In this document: positions 4,721 to 37,130 of the stretch, piece after piece
How the letters are laid out: the number at the start of each line of letters is the position of its first letter
Position numbering within the stretch: position 1 is the stretch's first letter
Source: a virus
DNA: 45,003 nt
Reading direction: 5' to 3' (one strand)
IMG/VR virus record: IMGVR_UViG_3300047321_000229
Location: 1-45,003 of that record
Program-made: the position numbers and the translations under genes
Notes under the pieces: generated by a model
Databases searched by the model: none
What the model saw: the letters and a program-made list of their open reading frames with translations, nothing else
What the model was told of the DNA's origin: nothing

Positions 4721-5506
4721 TTAGTTCCTTTCCTTGGCTGAACAGTACTTCCATACACTACATATTCGGCAATGGTCACCGACATTAGGGATGAACGTTT
4801 CGGACTCTACACCACGGTTTAGGCCTTCAAACCAGACCGTTAGACGCTCGTGCGTATACCGTGTGAGATCAGTTGGACCAACTTCTTTGTCATCCTTAAG
4901 CATAAGGAATGAACCTTCGTTGATTTCAACTCCGTAAGATTCTAGGACCGCTAGGCGGTAAACGCCTAGCTGAAAGTCCCAAGAGGGAATCTTAGTCCCT
5001 GACTTTAGGTCGACGATTCTTAGACTGCCGTCCGGGTATTCTCTGATTTGGTCAATGTACCCGACTACCTCAATAGTACCGAGGAAGATTTTAAAGGGCA
5101 ACTCTATTGCGGGCTCATAGTCGGGGGTTTCCCAAATGGTCCACCCATCGTTTAGAGCGTTAGCAATGTATCGCTCTAGTTGCTCGACCCCTCGGCCGAA
5201 TCTACGGCTAAGGTCCACACTACCCTTAGTGCGGGGATTACCGGTCATCCATTTATCAGTGTCCGGCTCATCCTTTAGCATGCGGGAAAGGTGAAGGCGC
5301 CATGCCGACTCGTAAACGTCGGTGGCGCCCGCCATGTCCATTGTTCTGTTAGAGCGTTCCCAGGCTTCTATAGCCTCATGTACTGCCAAACCCTGTAGCG
5401 TCCAACCGGCGGGAGTTTGGGGTTTCTTGTCCAGTCGCTCTAGCCGGTAACGCTCCGAGCAATTGGAATAGGTCGTGAATTGGGAAACGCTTCTATGCGC
5501 TACGAT
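4721..5506 (-). CDS. RecB/Cas4-like PD-(D/E)XK exonuclease, probable ATC start
   Basis: About 261 aa. The N-terminal part TTYSNCSERYRLERL and then GLAVHEAIEAW match the opening motifs of RecB-family nucleases. The core GYIDQIREYPDGSLRIVDLKSG supplies D and the D-x-K triad; QLGVYRLAV follows. C-terminal cysteines (CRICSVWKYC) together with the early C suggest an Fe-S cluster as in Cas4 and AddB. The first ordinary in-frame start is a TTG at 5389, after the N-terminal motifs. Between that and the upstream in-frame TGA there is no ATG, GTG or TTG. An ATC at 5506 sits six bases after AAAGGAGG. The enzyme would resect DNA ends for recombination. Confidence 0.82.
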   Translation of the reverse strand: MVAHRSVSQFTTYSNCSERYRLERLDKKPQTPAGWTLQGLAVHEAIEAWERSNRTMDMAGATDVYESAWRLHLSRMLKDEPDTDKWMTGNPRTKGSVDLSRRFGRGVEQLERYIANALNDGWTIWETPDYEPAIELPFKIFLGTIEVVGYIDQIREYPDGSLRIVDLKSGTKIPSWDFQLGVYRLAVLESYGVEINEGSFLMLKDDKEVGPTDLTRYTHERLTVWFEGLNRGVESETFIPNVGDHCRICSVWKYCSAKERN

Positions 5507-5886
5507 ATATGGCCTCCTTTTTCACTTGCGGCCCCGGGGAGGCCGTAGAAATCGGGGATAGCGTGCTCGTGCGGCACGTCCTCTTTATCCCGCACGTGGG
5601 GGAAGTACTGGGCTATGTATTCTTCCGAGACATTCCATTCGTACCACAACCTGTCACCCCGAACATCCTCAATAACCGGTTCCCCAAAAAGGGCCTCATT
5701 ACCCTTTATGGTTTGGCCTGCAAGGGACCAGTCACAATCCTCCCCCAGGGCGACGTAAAGGCGCTTATGGTCTGTATCGAAGCCAACTTCTACTTTGGCT
5801 TCAAAGTCAACCTTTATAGCCCGGTACCGGACCCCTCCGCTAGGGTCTTTTTCCATGGCAGAGCATGCGCCGACAGCGTGCGACAC
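5500..5886 (-). CDS. Hypothetical 128-aa protein, first gene of the early operon
   Basis: GTG start at 5886 with AGGA upstream; an internal ATG (MEKDPSGG) is an alternative. The protein is acidic, with alternating hydrophobic beta-like stretches (VDFEAKVEVGF, KRLYVALGED) and an Asp/His-rich C-terminus (DKEDVPHEHAIPDFYG). It is the first gene behind the early promoter at about 6.0 kb. Its last codons carry the Shine-Dalgarno of the nuclease gene. No family recognised. Confidence 0.6.
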   Translation of the reverse strand: MSHAVGACSAMEKDPSGGVRYRAIKVDFEAKVEVGFDTDHKRLYVALGEDCDWSLAGQTIKGNEALFGEPVIEDVRGDRLWYEWNVSEEYIAQYFPHVRDKEDVPHEHAIPDFYGLPGAASEKGGHIS

Positions 5887-6165: not shown

Positions 6166-6594
6166 CTAGTCCTCTTGGGTGAGCCAGGAATCCTCCCCCT
6201 TTCGACGCTTACGCCAATAAAACCCGAACTCTGGGTCATACACGACGATGAGCGGACCAGACTTAGCCCTAAAGCGCTCAAGCTCCCTTTCACGCTTTTT
6301 ACTAAGATGCATACCCGCCGCCTCTTCCGCAAGGGTGCGGAGCATGACGTTTTCTCGGTCGTGGAAATGTTCCTGGTCTAGGTTGCCGGGACTGTAGTCC
6401 TCGTAAGGCACCGCGCTAAGGGCTGAAAGGTCAGCCCTCCGCAAACGGGAAGCAATGGTGTTCTTGCTTACTCCCAGGTATTCGGCGGCCTCCGAATATG
6501 TACGAATCTGCGTAAGATTTTCATCGTACACGGCCTTAATCGTGTCCTCAATATCCGGGTTAGGGTGAGGCTTACGGCCGATTGGGGAAGACAT
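6166..6594 (-). CDS. Helix-turn-helix DNA-binding protein, best candidate for the immunity repressor
   Basis: 142 aa, ATG at 6594. Residues 31-53 (TYSEAAEYLGVSKNTIASRLRRA) are a clear helix-turn-helix. The rest is charged, with a basic helix KKRERELERFRAK and a C-terminal domain FGFYWRKRRKGEDSW that could dimerise. It is a single-gene unit with its own terminator and is preceded by a copy of the 21-bp operator between GCGCAC and TACGGT, which suggests autoregulation. It is separated from integrase by the putative attP, a usual place for a phage repressor. That it binds the palindromes is inference; the winged HTH at 9159-9377 is an alternative. Confidence 0.65.
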   Translation of the reverse strand: MSSPIGRKPHPNPDIEDTIKAVYDENLTQIRTYSEAAEYLGVSKNTIASRLRRADLSALSAVPYEDYSPGNLDQEHFHDRENVMLRTLAEEAAGMHLSKKRERELERFRAKSGPLIVVYDPEFGFYWRKRRKGEDSWLTQED

Positions 6595-6672: not shown

Positions 6673-6701
6673 ACCGTAGCACACACCGTGGGTGTGTGCG
6701 C
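6673..6701 (-). promoter_or_regulatory. Operator-promoter of the HTH gene
   Basis: GCGCAC, 17-base spacer, TACGGT reading leftward. The palindrome 6679-6699 fills the spacer. It is followed by the HTH gene about 80 bases downstream, hence probable autoregulation. Confidence 0.6.
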
Positions 6702-7316: not shown

Positions 7317-8558
7317 CTAGGCTGCCTCTTCCTCGCCTCCATCCAGGGCCACCAGCTCAAGGGGCGGAGTGACCCCCTGGAGGGCCGACAGGCCCCCGAT
7401 GAGTCGGTCCCCCACGGCGTCGCCTCCACGGCTGTAAGAACGGCTCACAAGGTGCCCGTAGACCTGTTCTGTAGTCCGAGTGTCCCGATGCCCAACCCAC
7501 TGCGCGATTTCGAACGGCGGGATGTTCGCATGCAGACACTGCGACACGAAATAGTGCCTAAGGCTCTTAGGTGTCAGATGGGGCACCCCTGCCCGGGCGG
7601 ACGCATCGTTGAACTGACGCAACAACCAGTCATAAGAGGGGTGCCGTCCCTCTTGGCGGGGAGACTCGAAATACCATCCCTCATCGCCCCAAATGTTAAA
7701 CGATTCGGCGTGCCCGTCCAAGGCTTCCATTACAACATCCGGGATAACCGTTTTTCTTGACTGGCTAATCTTCCTGTGCTTAGTTCCCTTTTTGATTCCC
7801 CTACGGCTACCCGTAATCTGGCAGATACCGTAAGCGCTAACCTGGTGATTGACTATCAGGATCCCAGGGTCGCGGGTAATGGAGTTTTCGCTAACCGCCA
7901 AAGACTCCCCAGGGCGGAGGCCGCTACCGGCCATAAGCCATGCGCTAAGGCGCAGCATTTTAGGCAATTCGGCGATAACGCCTAGAACCTGTTCAGTCTC
8001 GGGAATGTCCTCTTCCGACACGGGCTCATAGGCACTCCCCCCGGACGTTTTACGAGGGTTGGCATTCTTGCACGGGTTACGCCCGATGATCTCGGCGTTA
8101 ACCGCATACAGGAAAACGGAGGACAAAAGGTTATGGCGCGTTTTGATGCCGTACTCTTTATACCCTCGCGACGACTGGTCCTGCTCCCAATCCGCAATCA
8201 TGCTTTTGGTAATACTGGCAATAGGCAGATTACCGAACATGGGTCCGAAATGGTTTCGGTAAACGGACTCATAGTTTTTATACGTCGAAAGTTCAACGGT
8301 TCCGGTATTTAGCCACTGCTCCCACACGTTCTCAAACGTGCGCTTACCTTCCTTAGGGTCAATATACGTCCCCAGGTCCTTATCACGTTCCATTTTGATG
8401 CCGTGCGCCTTAGCGTCCTCCAAGAGTTTGAAGGACTTTTGCGCTTCACTACCCGCACGGCCCCCGGGGGTGCGCCACGAGACGCGGTAAGGCTTGTGCC
8501 TGCATGTAGCCTTTTTGGCCTTAGGGCACGCACATGGTTCGTGCTTAATAGTCGCCAC
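7317..8558 (-). CDS. int: Tyrosine integrase
   Basis: 413 aa, ATG at 8558. Site-specific recombinase for integration into and excision from the host chromosome. The catalytic residues are visible: Arg215 in GSGLRPGESL, Arg334 in PKSLRHYF (the first His of the H-x-x-R box is Lys331 here), His357 in WVGHRD, and the nucleophile Tyr367 in EQVYGHL. The N-terminus has a Cys/His-rich patch (CACPKAKKATCRH) that may be the arm-binding domain, followed by a SAM-like core-binding domain (about residues 70-160). Its own operator-promoter lies 40 bases upstream, so integrase is probably repressed in the lysogen. The gene ends nine bases from the last arm-type repeat. Confidence 0.95.
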   Translation of the reverse strand: MATIKHEPCACPKAKKATCRHKPYRVSWRTPGGRAGSEAQKSFKLLEDAKAHGIKMERDKDLGTYIDPKEGKRTFENVWEQWLNTGTVELSTYKNYESVYRNHFGPMFGNLPIASITKSMIADWEQDQSSRGYKEYGIKTRHNLLSSVFLYAVNAEIIGRNPCKNANPRKTSGGSAYEPVSEEDIPETEQVLGVIAELPKMLRLSAWLMAGSGLRPGESLAVSENSITRDPGILIVNHQVSAYGICQITGSRRGIKKGTKHRKISQSRKTVIPDVVMEALDGHAESFNIWGDEGWYFESPRQEGRHPSYDWLLRQFNDASARAGVPHLTPKSLRHYFVSQCLHANIPPFEIAQWVGHRDTRTTEQVYGHLVSRSYSRGGDAVGDRLIGGLSALQGVTPPLELVALDGGEEEAA

Positions 8559-11857: not shown

Positions 11858-11913
11858 GTGACGTAGATCACGCATCGGTGGGTGTTAAGGATTCCAGTCA
11901 AGACAGTACTATA

Positions 11914-11942
11914 TATAATGAGAGAGTCTTTAAGACTCTCTC
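11914..11942 (+). promoter_or_regulatory. Probable rightward promoter with overlapping dyad
   Basis: A perfect TATAAT at 11914-11919 lies in an AT-rich run (ACTATATATAATG). No good -35 is seen at 17-18 bases. Directly after it is a perfect 11-bp inverted repeat (11920-11930 and 11932-11942, GAGAGAGTCTT), placed where an operator over the start site or a 5' RNA hairpin would be. It is the first promoter-like signal before the late genes. Confidence 0.45.
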
Positions 11943-11961
11943 TAATAACTACTTACTTAAT

Positions 11962-12067
11962 AGGGCCCCCTACGGGGCCCTTACTTATAGGCCCTCCTAA
12001 GAGGGCCTTACTTATGGGGGCCTCCCATAGGCCCCCTATTACAGGGCCCCCCATGAAAGGGGGCCCT
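11962..12067. repeat. Array of four GC hairpins separated by TTACTTA spacers
   Basis: Stem-loops AGGGCCCC/GGGGCCCT (11962-11981), AGGCCCTC/GAGGGCCT (11989-12008), GGGGGCCT/AGGCCCCC (12016-12036) and AGGGCCCCC/GGGGGCCCT (12043-12067) follow each other. Spacers are TTACTTAT, TTACTTAT and TATTACA. Together with the dyad at 11920 there are five hairpins in 150 bases, before the HNH gene. Confidence 0.8.
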
Positions 12068-12072
12068 TAGTT

Positions 12073-12402
12073 ATGCCCAGCAATATGTGTAAGAAGTGTT
12101 ACCGACTCATCCCCCTAAGCGCTACTACATGTAGCGCATGCAGACAAAGCGCGCCAACAAAGGCGCGTGTATATAAGAACAAAGACAGAAAGGCCAGAGG
12201 TTACGATAACCAATGGCTAAGGAATGTAAAGGCTGCCATCATGAGGCAGCCCTATTGCTCCTTCTGCATGACAAAGGGAGATAAGAGTAACCCACTAACA
12301 GGGGATCACAAGATCCCCATTAGTAAAGGTGGCAACAACACCATGGGTAACATACGTGTCCTGTGTCGTCGCTGTAACAGCGCACGAGGTAACAGGGACT
12401 AG
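12073..12402 (+). CDS. HNH endonuclease (packaging-associated)
   Basis: 109 aa. Zinc-binding CKKCYRLI and CSACRQS open the protein. The HNH core is YCSFCMTKGD, TGDHKIPISKGG, NNTMGNIRVLCRRCN, complete with its metal-binding D-H and N. HNH proteins placed directly before the cos site and TerS assist terminase cleavage in HK97-type phages. Base composition is more AT-rich than its neighbours, which hints at separate acquisition. The first rightward gene behind the hairpin array. Confidence 0.85.
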   Translation: MPSNMCKKCYRLIPLSATTCSACRQSAPTKARVYKNKDRKARGYDNQWLRNVKAAIMRQPYCSFCMTKGDKSNPLTGDHKIPISKGGNNTMGNIRVLCRRCNSARGNRD

Positions 12403-13218: not shown

Positions 13219-13242
13219 CCCCTCCACAGGATCGTGGAGGGG
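13219..13242 (+). terminator. Hairpin after TerS
   Basis: CCCCTCCAC/GTGGAGGGG, 9 bp, loop of 6. No T-run follows, so it may protect the 3' end or only attenuate. A second dyad (CCCCCGG/CCGGGGG) follows at 13261-13286. Confidence 0.45.
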
Positions 13243-13292
13243 CTAGGGTGGGACCTAGGTCCCCCGGTCGCTATGGACGTCCGGGGGGCTCT

Positions 13293-13592
13293 TTACTGTC
13301 CGAATCGGCTGTCCCATACGGGAGTCATCCAGTTACCCCACGGGGAACCGATCGTCTTTTCTACGTACCGTCGGGTGAGCCATAGCGATTGGGGCGGAGG
13401 TTCCTCCCCTACGGCGGGGTTAGTCCCCCAATAGTGATAGCACCGGTTTAGCCACGCTTCCGCGCCGTGGCGTGTTTCCCATTTGAGGACGGTTTTGCCG
13501 TCCAGGGAGCAGAAAGCGCGCATTTGCATATCCCGGATTACGAACCGGTTTACGAGGGGCCTAACCTCGTACCTGTCTTGCATGTCTAACAT
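13293..13592 (-). CDS. Hypothetical 99-aa protein, paralogue of its neighbour
   Basis: ATG at 13592 shares one base with the upstream gene's stop (TAATG). The N-terminal half RYEVRPLVNRFVIRD, then GAEAWLNRCYHYW, aligns with the neighbouring gene product (RYRIGWNSLAERFMIADD, GAREWLDACQKIW). So the pair arose by tandem duplication. The C-terminal extension (TRRYVEKTIGSPWGNW) is unique. Function unknown. It lies leftward in the island between TerS and TerL. Confidence 0.6.
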   Translation of the reverse strand: MLDMQDRYEVRPLVNRFVIRDMQMRAFCSLDGKTVLKWETRHGAEAWLNRCYHYWGTNPAVGEEPPPQSLWLTRRYVEKTIGSPWGNWMTPVWDSRFGQ

Positions 13593-13813
13593 TACGCTTC
13601 CTCCCAAATCTTTTGGCAGGCATCCAGCCATTCCCGTGCGCCTTTAGCGTTGCGGAAAGAAAGCTGTTTGAGGTAACCGCATTGGTCGGGGAGGGCGCAC
13701 CATTCCCCGCCCAAAAGGTCATCCGCGATCATGAATCGCTCTGCGAGTGAATTCCAGCCGATCCGGTACCGGGCCGAAGAGTCGACCCGAACCGTGTCTA
13801 GTACCTGGCTCAT
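13592..13813 (-). CDS. Hypothetical 73-aa protein, paralogue of its neighbour
   Basis: ATG at 13813 (MSQVLDTVRVDSS). Same motif as the downstream gene: R-Y, then R-F-x-I, a Cys, and G-A-x-x-W-L-x-x-C ending in W. A small soluble alpha/beta protein of unknown function. No promoter with the operator is seen in front of it. Confidence 0.6.
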   Translation of the reverse strand: MSQVLDTVRVDSSARYRIGWNSLAERFMIADDLLGGEWCALPDQCGYLKQLSFRNAKGAREWLDACQKIWEEA

Positions 13814-13836
13814 GGGTCAACCGTACCTGTGTTACG

Positions 13837-14109
13837 TCACGTTGGGGAGACCGTAACGAAAATCCCCCCGATGGTGGCAGACCACTCGTCACCACGTTCG
13901 ATGGCTGTTGCCACCTCTGTCACGATTCGTTGGCGGAGGCCCATAACGGGCCCTAGGACGCTCACGAGCGCGTCCGTGGGGAGATCCTCGTACAGGCTCC
14001 TGATAGCGGCTGTGAGGGCCGTTGCAGCCTCCTCGGGAGTGTCTACCGTGGCATGGCTCCCGCCCTTGCCCTCTACCGTCCAACTGATTCTCATACGCCC
14101 AACGTACAT
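13837..14109 (-). CDS. Hypothetical 90-aa protein
   Basis: ATG at 14109, or at 14094 (MRISWTVEGKGG). The upstream end abuts the first tRNA gene on the other strand, and no clear Shine-Dalgarno is seen. The fold looks alpha/beta: RISWTVEG, a helix TPEEAATALTAAIRSLYEDL, and a C-terminal strand GGIFVTVSP. No family recognised. Confidence 0.5.
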   Translation of the reverse strand: MYVGRMRISWTVEGKGGSHATVDTPEEAATALTAAIRSLYEDLPTDALVSVLGPVMGLRQRIVTEVATAIERGDEWSATIGGIFVTVSPT

Positions 14110-14184
14110 GCCCTAATAGCCCAACTGGAAGAGGCCTACGGCTTAGACCCGTAGTAGGTGAGGGTTCGAATCCCTTTTAGGGTA
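14110..14184 (+). tRNA. tRNA with anticodon UAG (codon CUA), class I shape
   Basis: Acceptor GCCCTAA/TTAGGGT (7 bp with one G-U), 3-4 bp D-stem, anticodon stem TACGG/CCGTA with loop CTTAGAC (anticodon TAG at 14144-14146), T-arm GAGGG-TTCGAAT-CCCTT, discriminator A, no encoded CCA. The anticodon predicts Leu, but the variable region is only 6 bases, while bacterial tRNA-Leu normally has a long variable arm. CUA is rare in high-GC actinobacteria but common in this phage's genes. Confidence 0.8.
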
Positions 14185-14239
14185 CGCATGAGGCGGAAGC
14201 CAAGAAAGGCTGTCAGCCTTTCAGCGGTCACGCCCGCAA

Positions 14240-14312
14240 TGACACGTAGCTTAATCGGCAAAGCGTCCGGCTGTTACCCGGATGAGTGTAGGTTCGAATC
14301 CTACCGTGTCAG
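14240..14312 (+). tRNA. tRNA-Asn (anticodon GUU)
   Basis: Acceptor TGACACG/CGTGTCA perfect, D-stem GCTT/AAGC, anticodon stem TCCGG/CCGGA with loop CTGTTAC (GTT at 14273-14275), T-arm GTAGG-TTCGAAT-CCTAC, discriminator G. CCA is not encoded. Confidence 0.88.
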
Positions 14313-14322
14313 CAAATAAAAT

Positions 14323-14398
14323 GGGTCGCTAACTCAATTGGAAGAGTACCGGCGTGAAATGCCGGATGTTAATGGTTCGAATCCATTGCTTCCCACCA
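14323..14398 (+). tRNA. tRNA-Phe (anticodon GAA)
   Basis: Anticodon stem CCGGC/GCCGG with loop GTGAAAT (GAA at 14356-14358), D-stem ACTC/GAGT, T-arm AATGG-TTCGAAT-CCATT, CCA encoded. The acceptor GGGTCGC/GCTTCCC has two mismatches at pairs 4 and 5, so it may be degenerating or need editing. Confidence 0.75.
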
Positions 14399-33320: not shown

Positions 33321-33656
33321 TTAGGCCGGAATGTCGTACGCGCTAGGGTCGATGGGCGGGGCCACCATGCCCCGTGACCTAATGGCGGTTGCCTGTCGCT
33401 CCGCACACGTGAGACATAGCGGCTTTCGGTTAGCCCTTGCCTCCGCCATTTCCTCTTGGGTGAATTCCCGGATGGCAAAACCGCCCGGGGTTCGCTTAAC
33501 GTCCGGGGGAAGGTTAGTGGACGGGAGAACCGGGATCCCCATAATTCGATCCTTGTTAGCGAGCATGAACGTAACCGGATTTTCGCAGTTGTAGCACGGA
33601 GCTACGATCAGTTCTTGACCCGTAATGCTAATCGGCTCCGTGTCGTCGTATTCCAT
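33321..33656 (-). CDS. Hypothetical 111-aa zinc-ribbon-like protein
   Basis: ATG at 33656. Two Cys pairs, PCYNCENP (residue 20) and LCLTCAERQ (about 81), could bind one zinc. Between them are beta-like stretches and EEMAEARANRK. The C-terminus is Pro-rich (GMVAPPIDPSAYDIPA). Function unknown; small zinc proteins of this type often modulate host machinery, but nothing here shows that. Confidence 0.6.
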   Translation of the reverse strand: MEYDDTEPISITGQELIVAPCYNCENPVTFMLANKDRIMGIPVLPSTNLPPDVKRTPGGFAIREFTQEEMAEARANRKPLCLTCAERQATAIRSRGMVAPPIDPSAYDIPA

Positions 33657-33707: not shown

Positions 33708-33737
33708 ATTAAAACATGCGGGATCTCTCCCGCGCAA
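33708..33737 (-). promoter_or_regulatory. Cassette promoter with a different palindrome
   Basis: TTGCGC, 18-base spacer, TTTAAT reading leftward. The spacer holds a palindrome with half-site GCGGGA/TCCCGC (33715-33735) in place of the common GCACACCC. Same architecture, different sequence. Confidence 0.6.
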
Positions 33738-33758: not shown

Positions 33759-33977
33759 ATGACCTTTCTAGACCGTAACCGTGCACGACTGTACGCCGCT
33801 GTAGCGGCCCTACTCCCCCTAGTCGCGTTCTACCTCCACAACCTCCCCACGGGGCTCGTCCTGGGGGCCGTGGCGGGCGTCCTAGGGGTCAACGTGGACT
33901 CTCGGACCGTGCCGCTTACCGAGCATGACTCTAAGGTCCTGGAGGCCCTTTACACGGACGTCCCCGAGGGGGAGTAA
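33759..33977 (+). CDS. Small two-helix membrane protein, holin candidate
   Basis: 72 aa, ATG at 33759 with AAGGAGC ten bases upstream. Residues 10-28 (LYAAVAALLPLVAFYLHNL) and 30-46 (GLVLGAVAGVLGVNV) are hydrophobic; the C-terminus is acidic and soluble. This topology suits a class II holin, and it is one of the few rightward genes near the endolysin. It ends in stop codons tiled every 4 bases (33975-33993). Confidence 0.55.
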   Translation: MTFLDRNRARLYAAVAALLPLVAFYLHNLPTGLVLGAVAGVLGVNVDSRTVPLTEHDSKVLEALYTDVPEGE

Positions 33978-33993
33978 GTAGGTAGGTAACTAA
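33975..33993 (+). other. Stop codons tiled every four bases, second site
   Basis: TAA, TAG, TAG, TAA, TAA at 33975, 33979, 33983, 33987 and 33991, after the holin-candidate gene. Confidence 0.8.
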
Positions 33994-34010: not shown

Positions 34011-34041
34011 GGCCCCCGCCGTAATGGCGGGGGCCCTTTCT
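34011..34041 (+). terminator. Terminator of the holin-candidate gene
   Basis: Perfect 10-bp stem GGCCCCCGCC/GGCGGGGGCC, loop GTAAT, then CTTTCTTC. It may also act leftward for the Lsr2-like gene. Confidence 0.75.
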
Positions 34042-34058: not shown

Positions 34059-34478
34059 TTAGCCCTTTACGGGCATAAGGTCTTCAACCTCCACTCCGTG
34101 CGCCTTAGCGTAGGCCTCCTTAACCTGGAGGGGGACGCGTCCCCGGTCCCCTACCTCGTAACCCTCACCCAGGGCCCACGAGCGGACCATGACCAGGTTG
34201 TGACCCGTGTTGCGGCGCGGCCCCGTAGCCGTGCGCGTCCGGACAGGGGCGGCAGCAGGCTTGCGGACGAGCGTAAGGGCCGCGTCCTCATCGACGGTCG
34301 CGCAAGCGATGTACTTAGCGAGCATTTCGCGGAATCCGTTAGCCTGCTCCTTACCGGTTTCCAGCTTAAACGCCACACCGTCCAGGGAGAAACGGACAAT
34401 GTCCGAGTCTTCCTCCGGGATGATCTCGCCGGTAAGGTCATCCGTGATTTCGACCAGTTCAATAATCTTGCGCGCCAT
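34059..34478 (-). CDS. Phage-encoded Lsr2-like nucleoid protein
   Basis: 139 aa, ATG at 34478. Lsr2 bridges AT-rich DNA and silences foreign genes in actinobacteria. N-terminal dimerisation domain: VEITDDLTGEI, then IVRFSLDGVAFKLETGKEQANGFREMLAKYI, as in host Lsr2. C-terminal DNA-binding domain: VRSWALGEGYEVGDRGRVPLQVKEAYAKAH, with the minor-groove Arg-Gly-Arg at residues 112-114. A Pro/Arg/Thr-rich linker of about 25 residues joins the two. Its promoter at 34556-34585 lacks the common operator, so it may be made in the prophage. It could silence phage genes, mimic host Lsr2 or disrupt host silencing. Confidence 0.88.
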   Translation of the reverse strand: MARKIIELVEITDDLTGEIIPEEDSDIVRFSLDGVAFKLETGKEQANGFREMLAKYIACATVDEDAALTLVRKPAAAPVRTRTATGPRRNTGHNLVMVRSWALGEGYEVGDRGRVPLQVKEAYAKAHGVEVEDLMPVKG

Positions 34479-34555
34479 TTTTGGGGTTCCTTTTCCCTGA
34501 TATCCGCTGGGGGTTAGGAGGGGGGCCCTTAGGCCCCCGCTCCCTTCTGCTTACG

Positions 34556-34585
34556 ATTATGCCCTAAGGGGCGGGGTTAGCGCAA
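34556..34585 (-). promoter_or_regulatory. Promoter of the Lsr2-like gene (no CACAC operator)
   Basis: TTGCGC, 18-base spacer, CATAAT reading leftward. The spacer is C/G-rich without the palindrome. The leader contains a GGGGGCC/GGCCCCC hairpin (34520-34539) that could attenuate. Confidence 0.55.
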
Positions 34586-34599
34586 CCCCCTTAGGGGTT

Positions 34600-35823
34600 C
34601 TACTCGGCTCCGAGAATCTCGCCAATCCGGGTTACCCGGTCGTCCCAATACTGGTAAGCGTTTTCGCCCCCCGGGCGGTTCTTGCTGGCCTTAGCGATAG
34701 CTCCCCAGTTTTCCCATGCCTTCCAGGGGTCAGCCACGCCGAACTCACGGGAGGCCCGTGCCTCCGGGGCCTCCTCCTCCTCCGTGTCGTCGTCGTCCTC
34801 CTCCGGGGCCTCGTCCTCCGGCTTGTTCGCCTCCATAGAGGCGGAGTACTCCGCATGCCCTCCATCGGGGGCGTCCCTGTCCTCTACGGCCTCCGGCGCG
34901 TCCTCCTGGGGCGCCTCCACCTCCGGGTCGGGGGTGGTGTCCGTAGGGGCCTCCAGGGCCTCCGCCATGATGATCAACTCCGCTTCAACCTCGGTGACGC
35001 AATTGGCGCACGGCTTAATGTCGCCCGCCTCTTCCAGGGAGAGGATGGGGAAACCGTTGTACTCACGTGCCGCAGCACGCTTAACGGTGTTGCACTTTTC
35101 GGCATCGTCCTTGTGGTGGACGGCTTGCCGGTTAGCCGCACTGAAAAGCTTAGACTCAGACACCTTGTGTCCCTTTCCGCTGGCTTGTGATTCAGACTTT
35201 AGCGGGTTAGTGGCGTTGGGGTCAACCCACCCAACCGTTTCCCGGAACCATTCCAGGGCAACGCTGTAATCCGCGTTGTCGATTTCTTTCCCGGTCAATT
35301 CCGTTTGGTCACCCAGCCACTTACGGGCGCCCTTCGCGTACTCTTCCACGGATCCCATTTGGAACCGTTCCCCGGCCTGAACGTGCATGTCGGTTTCGGT
35401 TCCCAGGGCCCGCATTACCGCGCGGGTTTCCGGGGTCTCACCGGTAATACGCTCAATGTCGTTGTCGTCCATTCCGTTTCCCTCCGTCGGGGTGGACGCT
35501 ACAGGGTTAGCGGCCTCCGTGTCTACGTCCCCCATAAGCTCGGCCATAATCGCTTTATGGGTTATCGCTACCGCTTCCGTGATGCGCTCGCGGTGCTCGT
35601 GGTCCTCCGGGCGGTAACCGTCCCCCAGGTTCTCAAACGCGTTAGCCAGCATCACGTTTTCCTTTTTGTTGTCGCCGTAGTAGTTGAGGGCGACAGGCTT
35701 AAGGTCCTTGAAGATGCGGATACGCCAATTATCCTTGTGGCACTCAACGTAGTAAGAGTGAGTTTCCCCGTAAGCGTGATACTGACCCGATTCAACCCGC
35801 GTCCACTTGAGCACCGTTGCCAC
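34600..35823 (-). CDS. Large acidic hypothetical protein
   Basis: 407 aa, ATG at 35823. Residues 1-75 form a beta-rich domain (VESGQYHAYGETHSYYVECHKDNWRI). A middle domain contains EEYAKGARKWLGDQ, then FRETVGWVDPN. A Cys pair in IKPCANCVTEVE (about 255) follows HHKDDAEKCNT. The last third is extremely acidic (EDEAPEEDDDDTEEEEAPE), then a short helical end. A long polyanionic region can mimic DNA, as in several anti-restriction and anti-repressor proteins, but no family is recognised. It has the operator-promoter of the cassette set. Confidence 0.65.
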   Translation of the reverse strand: MATVLKWTRVESGQYHAYGETHSYYVECHKDNWRIRIFKDLKPVALNYYGDNKKENVMLANAFENLGDGYRPEDHEHRERITEAVAITHKAIMAELMGDVDTEAANPVASTPTEGNGMDDNDIERITGETPETRAVMRALGTETDMHVQAGERFQMGSVEEYAKGARKWLGDQTELTGKEIDNADYSVALEWFRETVGWVDPNATNPLKSESQASGKGHKVSESKLFSAANRQAVHHKDDAEKCNTVKRAAAREYNGFPILSLEEAGDIKPCANCVTEVEAELIIMAEALEAPTDTTPDPEVEAPQEDAPEAVEDRDAPDGGHAEYSASMEANKPEDEAPEEDDDDTEEEEAPEARASREFGVADPWKAWENWGAIAKASKNRPGGENAYQYWDDRVTRIGEILGAE

Positions 35824-35853: not shown

Positions 35854-35882
35854 AGTAAAGCACACCCGTAAGGGGTGTGCAA
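35854..35882 (-). promoter_or_regulatory. Operator-promoter of the acidic 407-aa gene
   Basis: TTGCAC, 17-base spacer, TTTACT reading leftward; palindrome 35860-35880. Confidence 0.7.
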
Positions 35883-35920: not shown

Positions 35921-36280
35921 TTAGGCCCAACGGTTACCGTGATTCTTCCCGCCGCACTGGCAGTCGCACGCGGCGCTCTTAGCGTTTGTGCAACGGCCGT
36001 CACAAACCTTTTCCGGGTTGTACGTCCCCTTAAGGTGCTTACCGGCCATAGGGCCGTGCGCCTCACAAGAGGCGCCGTTAGCGGCGTACAGGAGGCGCAT
36101 TGCCTCCTTTACCTCCGGGGTGCCACCGAAGATCCAGGCGTGAATGTCGTGGAACTTGCCCCAGAGGGGCGCGTATTCGCCGGTAAGGACCGGCCCACCG
36201 CGCTGGGCCTCAAGGTCGGTAACCGCGTGAGACTTGCAACCCTTAGTCGTGCACTTCCAGAACACGCGGACCGTTTCCAT
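35921..36280 (-). CDS. Cys-rich zinc protein with CxCGGxNHG tail
   Basis: 119 aa from ATG at 36280 (METVRVFWKCTTKGC), chosen because GGAGGT lies 8 bases upstream; the longer frame to 36349 runs through the promoter. One zinc cluster is likely from FWKCTTKGCKSH and ASCEAHG. The C-terminus reads VCDGRCTNAKSAACDCQCGGKNHG, a motif seen at the end of many actinophage small proteins. No function is established. Confidence 0.68.
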   Translation of the reverse strand: METVRVFWKCTTKGCKSHAVTDLEAQRGGPVLTGEYAPLWGKFHDIHAWIFGGTPEVKEAMRLLYAANGASCEAHGPMAGKHLKGTYNPEKVCDGRCTNAKSAACDCQCGGKNHGNRWA

Positions 36281-36320
36281 TGCCTTACCTCCGCTAACCC
36301 GTTGCCCTTGCGATGTCTCT

Positions 36321-36349
36321 ATTAAAGCACACCCTAGCGGGGTGTGCAA
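36321..36349 (-). promoter_or_regulatory. Operator-promoter of the 119-aa gene
   Basis: TTGCAC, 17-base spacer, TTTAAT reading leftward; palindrome 36327-36347. Confidence 0.7.
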
Positions 36350-36386: not shown

Positions 36387-36449
36387 CCACCACCCCCTTA
36401 GGGGTTGTCCTTTAGGTGTTAGCCTCTAATATCCGGCAGGCTAGACAAA

Positions 36450-36573
36450 AGGGACATTTCGGACTTAACGGACATTTCCGACATTTCGGGTATGCCCATT
36501 TTATGATGATTTATTGCCATAAGTCCGCCCATAGTGGACATTAGCGACATGTCCGATTAAGGGCAAAAGGAAA
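36450..36573. repeat. AT-richer non-coding block with iterons (origin candidate, part 1)
   Basis: GACATTTC occurs at 36453, 36471 and 36480. GGACATTAGCGACAT at 36536 recurs as GGACATTAGCGGCAT at 12619. GACATGTC (36546-36553) is a palindrome. TTATGATGATTTAT lies at 36501-36514. No gene is seen here. Confidence 0.55.
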
Positions 36574-36591
36574 GGGGCCCTTTCGGGCCCC
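36574..36591 (-). terminator. Terminator of the 88-aa gene
   Basis: 7-bp stem GGGGCCC/GGGCCCC with tetraloop, followed leftward by TTTCCTTTTG. Confidence 0.6.
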
Positions 36592-36596
36592 CCTGG

Positions 36597-36863
36597 TTAG
36601 GCGTTGCAGCTCTCGCACGTGTTCGCAAAGTCCCCGGTTCCGTGTCCACCGTGGGTGTGACCCTTAGGCTTGGCCTCCTCCGCTGCCATCCAGGCCTCCG
36701 CGTCCTGCTCCATCTTCAGGTACTCCGCGCCCTGTACACGGGCCCCCCAGGGGGTTACAGCCTGGGTCCGGCTCCAGGGGCCCTTAGCGCCGTATCCGTC
36801 CGACGCGATAACCTTGAAGGAGTAGGTTCCGTCATTCTCGCGGCGAGTCTTCAGCGTGGCCAT
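36597..36863 (-). CDS. Hypothetical 88-aa protein
   Basis: ATG at 36863 (MATLKTRRENDGTYSFKVI). Beta-like first half, helix around EYLKMEQDAEAWMAAEEA, then a His/Gly-rich segment (HTHGGHGTGDF) and CESCNA at the end, so metal binding is possible. Monocistronic leftward cassette. No family recognised. Confidence 0.6.
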   Translation of the reverse strand: MATLKTRRENDGTYSFKVIASDGYGAKGPWSRTQAVTPWGARVQGAEYLKMEQDAEAWMAAEEAKPKGHTHGGHGTGDFANTCESCNA

Positions 36864-36937: not shown

Positions 36938-37130
36938 CCCCTTAGGGAAAATATTTTCCCGGTTAGGCATGTCTAATATTTCGCCCAATGGGCGCCATGA
37001 GATGATAAATACCCCGTCGTCCACCATATGATGATAAAACCCCCTAATCGGACATTAGGGACTTTAGGGACTAGTCCGATTTGTGGCTTTTGTCCCTTTT
37101 GTGGCTTTTGTCTGTTCCGGCCTAAAGGAA
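36938..37130. repeat. Non-coding block with direct repeats (origin candidate, part 2)
   Basis: GATGATAAA at 37001 and 37030; GGACATTAG at 37050; a perfect 15-bp direct repeat TTTGTGGCTTTTGTC at 37080 and 37098 (period 18). The block is AT-richer than its surroundings. No gene on either strand. Confidence 0.55.

Follow-up and report, generated by a model that had tools for sequence, protein, structure and literature searches.

Actinobacteriophages are already known to carry Lsr2-like genes, and activity of such genes in dormant phages is known as well. Their frequency is about threefold higher in temperate actinophages, and approximately 35% of Streptomyces phages have one (PMC8612146); the gene of mycobacteriophage Ladybird is reported as lysogenically expressed (PMC10066036). 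The occurrence of an lsr2 gene at positions 34059–34478 (minus strand) of the phage genome analyzed here raises the question of what this gene does in a lysogen, and whether it could be active while most early promoters are repressed.

The analyzed sequence (the window) is the whole 45,003-nt record IMG/VR IMGVR_UViG_3300047321_000229 of a soil virus. Its first 127 bases are identical to its last 127 bases, so the window most likely represents a whole genome cut open at an arbitrary position. The genome has a GC content of ~56%. Besides replication genes and a structural block that runs rightward, it encodes an integrase and an excisionase-like protein, and with these two on a complete genome the phage is classed as temperate. 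A comparison of the right-hand 15 kb with 50,697 phage records gave no near DNA match. An actinobacterium is the likely host, and Streptomyces is a plausible one, mainly based on the tyrosine integrase (7317–8558, minus strand), which shares 59% identity with that of Streptomyces phage Success. The best tblastn matches of the window Lsr2 are Gordonia phages. A genome scan with the Lsr2 alignment gave a Micromonospora locus with 34% identity as the sole match, and a portal search across 395 genomes from the class to which this Micromonospora belongs returned one 46% relative, whose contig has no Lsr2 match; neither search thus found a lysogen of this phage family. Likewise, no attachment core common to the window and Success was found. 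Further features of the genome are four putative tRNAs for His (ARAGORN only), Leu, Asn and Phe ahead of the structural block at 13237–14398 (plus strand), as well as GGACAT/GACATTT iteron-like repeats in AT-rich DNA on both sides of gene 36597–36863 (36440–36580 and 36980–37120), a possible replication origin. In addition, a CAGCGGAAAGG-like element, recalling start-associated sequences, precedes many ribosome-binding sites (33210, 33670, 34503, 35176, 37373 and others; minus strand). TAAG-type tetranucleotide repeats (TAAGTAAGTAAG), which provide stop codons in all three frames, lie in or close to intergenic stretches and gene ends (33965–33990, 39691, 39740 and in relatives).

The lsr2 gene has an ATG start preceded by an AAAGGAA ribosome-binding site and encodes a protein of 139 amino acids. 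Here, the dimerization domain (PF11774, residues 1–61; E = 3.8e-11, 42.9 bits versus a cut-off of 29.6) is followed by a charged linker, the DNA-binding domain (PF23359, residues 97–126; E = 6.9e-10, 38.6 bits versus 26.9) and a C-terminal tail extending past the end of host Lsr2; the best PHROG is the Lsr2-like phrog_1223 (3.6e-21). The RGR hook (residues 112–114, within DRGRVP) aligns with 2kng and 6qkq, matching TRGRIP in the C-domain structure of M. tuberculosis Lsr2, and it is invariant across the Lsr2 proteins of all relatives. The sequence-only reading had described both domains as intact, including the Arg-Gly-Arg hook, and these data bear it out. An AlphaFold model of moderate confidence (mean pLDDT 63) placed the Lsr2 C-domains 6qkp and 2kng at ranks 1 and 3 of a fold search, in which all matches were weak and none fell below E = 0.001. 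Related Lsr2 genes were detected by tblastn in 260 phage records from phages of Mycobacterium, Gordonia and Streptomyces, all below 60% identity. With dN/dS values of 0.18–0.29 (ten pairs), lsr2 is an intact gene under purifying selection.

Next, we considered the regulatory context. The CACAC palindrome gave 19 regular-expression matches in the window, where 0.24 were expected; these correspond to 13 exact GCACACN9GTGTGC sites, all 13 of which have a centre of exactly 9 bp. Sites precede the integrase, helicase and candidate repressor genes, as well as numerous small leftward genes. Most early promoters of this phage carry this dyad of fixed geometry, whose copies lie mostly within TTGCAC-17-TTTAAT promoters, the clearest ones sitting between TTGCAC and TTTAAT at the 17-bp spacing, where a bound protein would block the polymerase. 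The rightward late genes lack it. A pattern search including the 9-bp centre retrieved eight stretches on seven contigs; among these relatives the dyad occurs 14 times in the 48-kb contig G002 and 6–9 times in four shorter contigs.

The dyad is plausibly the operator of the lysogenic repressor, as we infer from synteny with cluster A phages. The order exonuclease, hypothetical gene (5500–5886) and 6166–6594 (minus strand) corresponds to the order cas4, hypothetical gene and immunity repressor in the cluster A phage Trixie; by this position, the 142-amino-acid HTH protein encoded at 6166–6594 is likely the phage repressor. It shows a weak PHROG similarity to a transcriptional repressor (0.004). 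Its orthologues in G002 and G004 are 73–79% identical, and each has an operator upstream, as has the window gene itself (6679–6699), an arrangement that we read as autoregulation. Homology to the Trixie repressor is not claimed: hhalign gave p ~0.009 over the HTH only, and whereas none of five shuffled controls did better than 0.1, the excisionase-like HTH of the same phage reached a better value (0.0017). The single-sequence fold of the candidate was too poor to be used (pLDDT 44).

In contrast to most early promoters, the lsr2 promoter (34556–34585, minus strand) is free of this operator. It consists of a -35-like TTGCGC (34585–34580), an 18-bp spacer and a -10-like CATAAT (34561–34556). Within 150 bp upstream of lsr2, no GCACACN9GTGTGC site is present in any of the five distinct lineages, the window included, and the best match departs from the dyad at 4/12 positions in the window and at 5/12 in each relative tested, which is the level of random 150-mers (mostly 4–6). 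The nearest operator upstream (35860–35880) belongs to the promoter of the preceding gene (34600–35823, minus strand; 407 amino acids, no family). Six of the seven operator-bearing contigs encode a close Lsr2; the seventh, only 24 kb long, may be a partial record. Together with the window, this gives seven lsr2 copies representing five distinct proteins, which are 66–80% identical to that of the window. All seven copies are without the operator, although the dyad is present elsewhere in each record, and all share TTGCGC, the 18-bp spacing and CATAAT with nearly invariant flanking bases, keeping TTGCGCTAACCC...TTAGGGCATAATC-TAAGCA. The earlier observation that this promoter has no CACAC palindrome hence extends to every sampled relative: lsr2 has its own conserved promoter without the dyad, and the absence of the operator, combined with retention of the core promoter across lineages, is conserved in the family rather than a loss specific to one genome. 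Only one further promoter recurrently lacks the operator in each of the six records scanned, namely that of the gene next to lsr2 (33321–33656); in the window it lies at 33708–33737 (minus strand; TTGCGC-18-TTTAAT) and has a dyad of its own, GCGGGAGAGATCCCGC. This dyad reads GCGGGA..TCCCGC in some lineages and CACGGG..CCCGTG in others, keeping its symmetry as if a second repressor–operator pair co-evolves.

Exemption from the presumed repressor operator makes expression of lsr2 in the lysogen plausible. Absence of the operator is, however, no proof of it, because the rightward late genes, which are presumably off in the lysogen, are operator-free as well. Three further points count against lysogenic expression. 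The -35 element is poor, matching TTGACA at only 3/6 positions, and a generic sigma-70 scan does not call the promoter. Read-through into lsr2 from the operator-controlled gene 34600–35823 is possible, because only a short hairpin and no U-tract terminator separates the two genes. Finally, a dyad (GGGGTTGCGCTAACCCC, 34573–34589, minus strand) covers the -35 region; it has the form GGGTTN5AACCC in all relatives and could be a different operator.

The last point leads to an alternative which we consider rather unlikely, namely that lsr2 is not constitutive and that another regulator acting at GGGTTN5AACCC over the -35 confines its expression to one stage, for example early infection or induction. 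Across all lsr2 copies, arms and centre of this dyad do not vary; the exempt promoter at 33737 also has a dyad, whose arms change yet stay symmetric. Moreover, the element recurs elsewhere: the orthologue of 35921–36349 bears the lsr2-type element TTGCACTAACCCC (TTGCRCTAACCC) at its promoter in G004 and G005, in place of the CACAC operator found in the window and G002 orthologues. However, many promoters of the phage have runs of G before and runs of C after TTGCAC, so GGGTTN5AACCC may be mere context, and invariance over just five distinct lineages is too little to show selection on symmetry.

The leader of lsr2 forms a 5'-proximal hairpin (34516–34544, minus strand). The sequence-only reading had noted a hairpin there, and we could locate it and fold its G/C stem near the leader 5' end in all five distinct leaders, with stem bases varying between lineages; the window hairpin is not significant taken alone (z -1.34), and those of relatives reach -1.64 to -2.88. 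Several other leaders also have 5'-proximal hairpins, but the lsr2 leader is the most stable of those compared in the window (-28 versus -11 to -18 kcal/mol) and its hairpin the strongest. An attenuator was rejected, as the stem is not followed by a U-tract and is not an intrinsic terminator; for the same reason, the hairpin is better read as an mRNA stabilizer and may stabilize the short lsr2 mRNA. A terminator-like hairpin, scored on the plus strand (34011–34035), lies between lsr2 and the convergent gene 33759–33977.

With regard to possible targets, the most AT-rich 50–80 bp of the genome are found at the head of the rightward gene block (11883–11969, plus strand), contain TATATATAAT and represent a hypothetical Lsr2 nucleation site. 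The AT maximum over 50 bp is 0.74 at 11913 and falls at the same place in G002, but it does not exceed the Markov control. This peak lies ahead of a block that opens with an HNH gene and continues towards the structural genes. Between TATATATAAT and the HNH gene (12073), an uninterrupted row of five strong hairpins, with TTACTTA-like linkers between four of them, occupies 11920–12074 (plus strand; MFE -90.3 kcal/mol, z -7.7); this array is also found in G002 and could be an antitermination or processing element of the late operon. Two observations weaken the sequence-only interpretation: long AT tracts are few in the genome, and GC does not drop at the lsr2 promoter. For clusters A, BD and J, a fall in GC ahead of lsr2 has been reported and read as autoregulation (PMC8612146). 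In contrast, the 150 bp upstream of lsr2 have 60% GC in the window (78th percentile of the window) versus 56% for the genome, and 57–61% in the five lineages; a GC drop, and autoregulation based on it, was therefore rejected for this gene.

The closest functional parallel is CgpS of Corynebacterium glutamicum, which keeps the prophage CGP3 silent (PMC7002338, PMC7074111, PMC7650747). Both are prophage-encoded two-domain Lsr2 proteins with a presumed preference for AT-rich DNA and a plausible part in the upkeep of lysogeny. CGP3 is, however, a cryptic prophage, whereas the window is a complete 45-kb phage with integrase, a separate sequence-specific operator system and few long AT tracts. The protein belongs to the same family as the Lsr2-like proteins of clusters A, BD and J (phrog_1223), and its gene, like theirs, lies near structural or lysis genes, as does gene 71 of Success. 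Success (OP751148) has its lsr2 at the corresponding place, right after the lysis genes and on the opposite strand, but its Lsr2 is only 32.5% identical, and it has one CACAC–GTGTG match and no operator family of this type. The control system resembles that of cluster A (L5, Trixie) in having one repressor (in the window, a candidate) with many sites across the genome, a repressor gene beside a cas4-type exonuclease in the same order as in Trixie, and a DnaB-type helicase 46% identical to those of cluster A mycobacteriophages. Unlike the asymmetric cluster A stoperators, which are 13 bp long and mostly lie in one orientation outside promoters (PMC6550527), the window sites are symmetric 21-bp dyads located mostly inside promoter spacers.

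By analogy with CgpS, support of lysogeny on AT-rich phage DNA would be the most likely role of the gene. In this model, the repressor, probably the product of 6166–6594, would act on the GCACACN9GTGTGC operators, and lsr2, having none, would be transcribed in the lysogen. Its product would dimerize and bridge AT-rich DNA, the first target being the prophage's own DNA, which at ~56% GC is probably lower in GC than that of the host, and Lsr2 would thereby help to hold the prophage silent, in the way CgpS acts on CGP3. Taken as a whole, a functional phage Lsr2 that is expressed in the lysogen and silences AT-rich prophage DNA in a CgpS-like manner has, in our estimate, about an even chance of being correct.

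Phage Lsr2 could instead act on host Lsr2, by mixed oligomers via the N-terminal domain or by competition for AT-rich DNA, and in this way shield incoming phage DNA from silencing or exclude other phages from the lysogen. Compared with the chromosomal Lsr2 of two sampled actinobacterial genomes, identity is 31–42% in the N-terminal and 42–50% in the C-terminal domain; the phage proteins have a net charge of -4 to -6 versus +1 to +7 for these chromosomal copies, a longer acidic loop (an insert) in the N-terminal domain, and the C-terminal tail. Charge, loop insert and tail could alter a mixed oligomer with host Lsr2. Interference with phage competitors and dominant-negative effects have already been proposed for phage Lsr2 (PMC10066036, PMC8612146). 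In infection, a phage lsr2 gene does not take over from host Lsr2 (PMC10066036). On the other hand, the DNA-binding domain is intact, which differs from truncated antagonists of the H-NST type, and overall we regard an action on host Lsr2 as improbable, though worth serious consideration. That lsr2 is a mere passenger without a current function, as an identity of only 30–35% to its nearest named relatives might suggest, is highly improbable in view of its low dN/dS, its invariant key residues and the private promoter kept in seven records.

The CgpS-like reading can be taken one step further, at considerably lower probability, to a two-tier control of lysogeny. Here, the repressor would shut the early promoters via GCACACN9GTGTGC and an always-on Lsr2 would cover the rest, above all the head of the operator-free rightward late block with its AT peak and TATATATAAT. 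If true, repressor and phage Lsr2 would split the prophage between them. Phage lsr2 genes are common in actinophages, and in the family described here the sequence alone separates the operator-bearing promoters cleanly from a pair of neighbouring exempt promoters, one of them that of lsr2. This phage family consequently offers a single system in which the question of whether phage Lsr2 is a lysogeny factor becomes directly testable.
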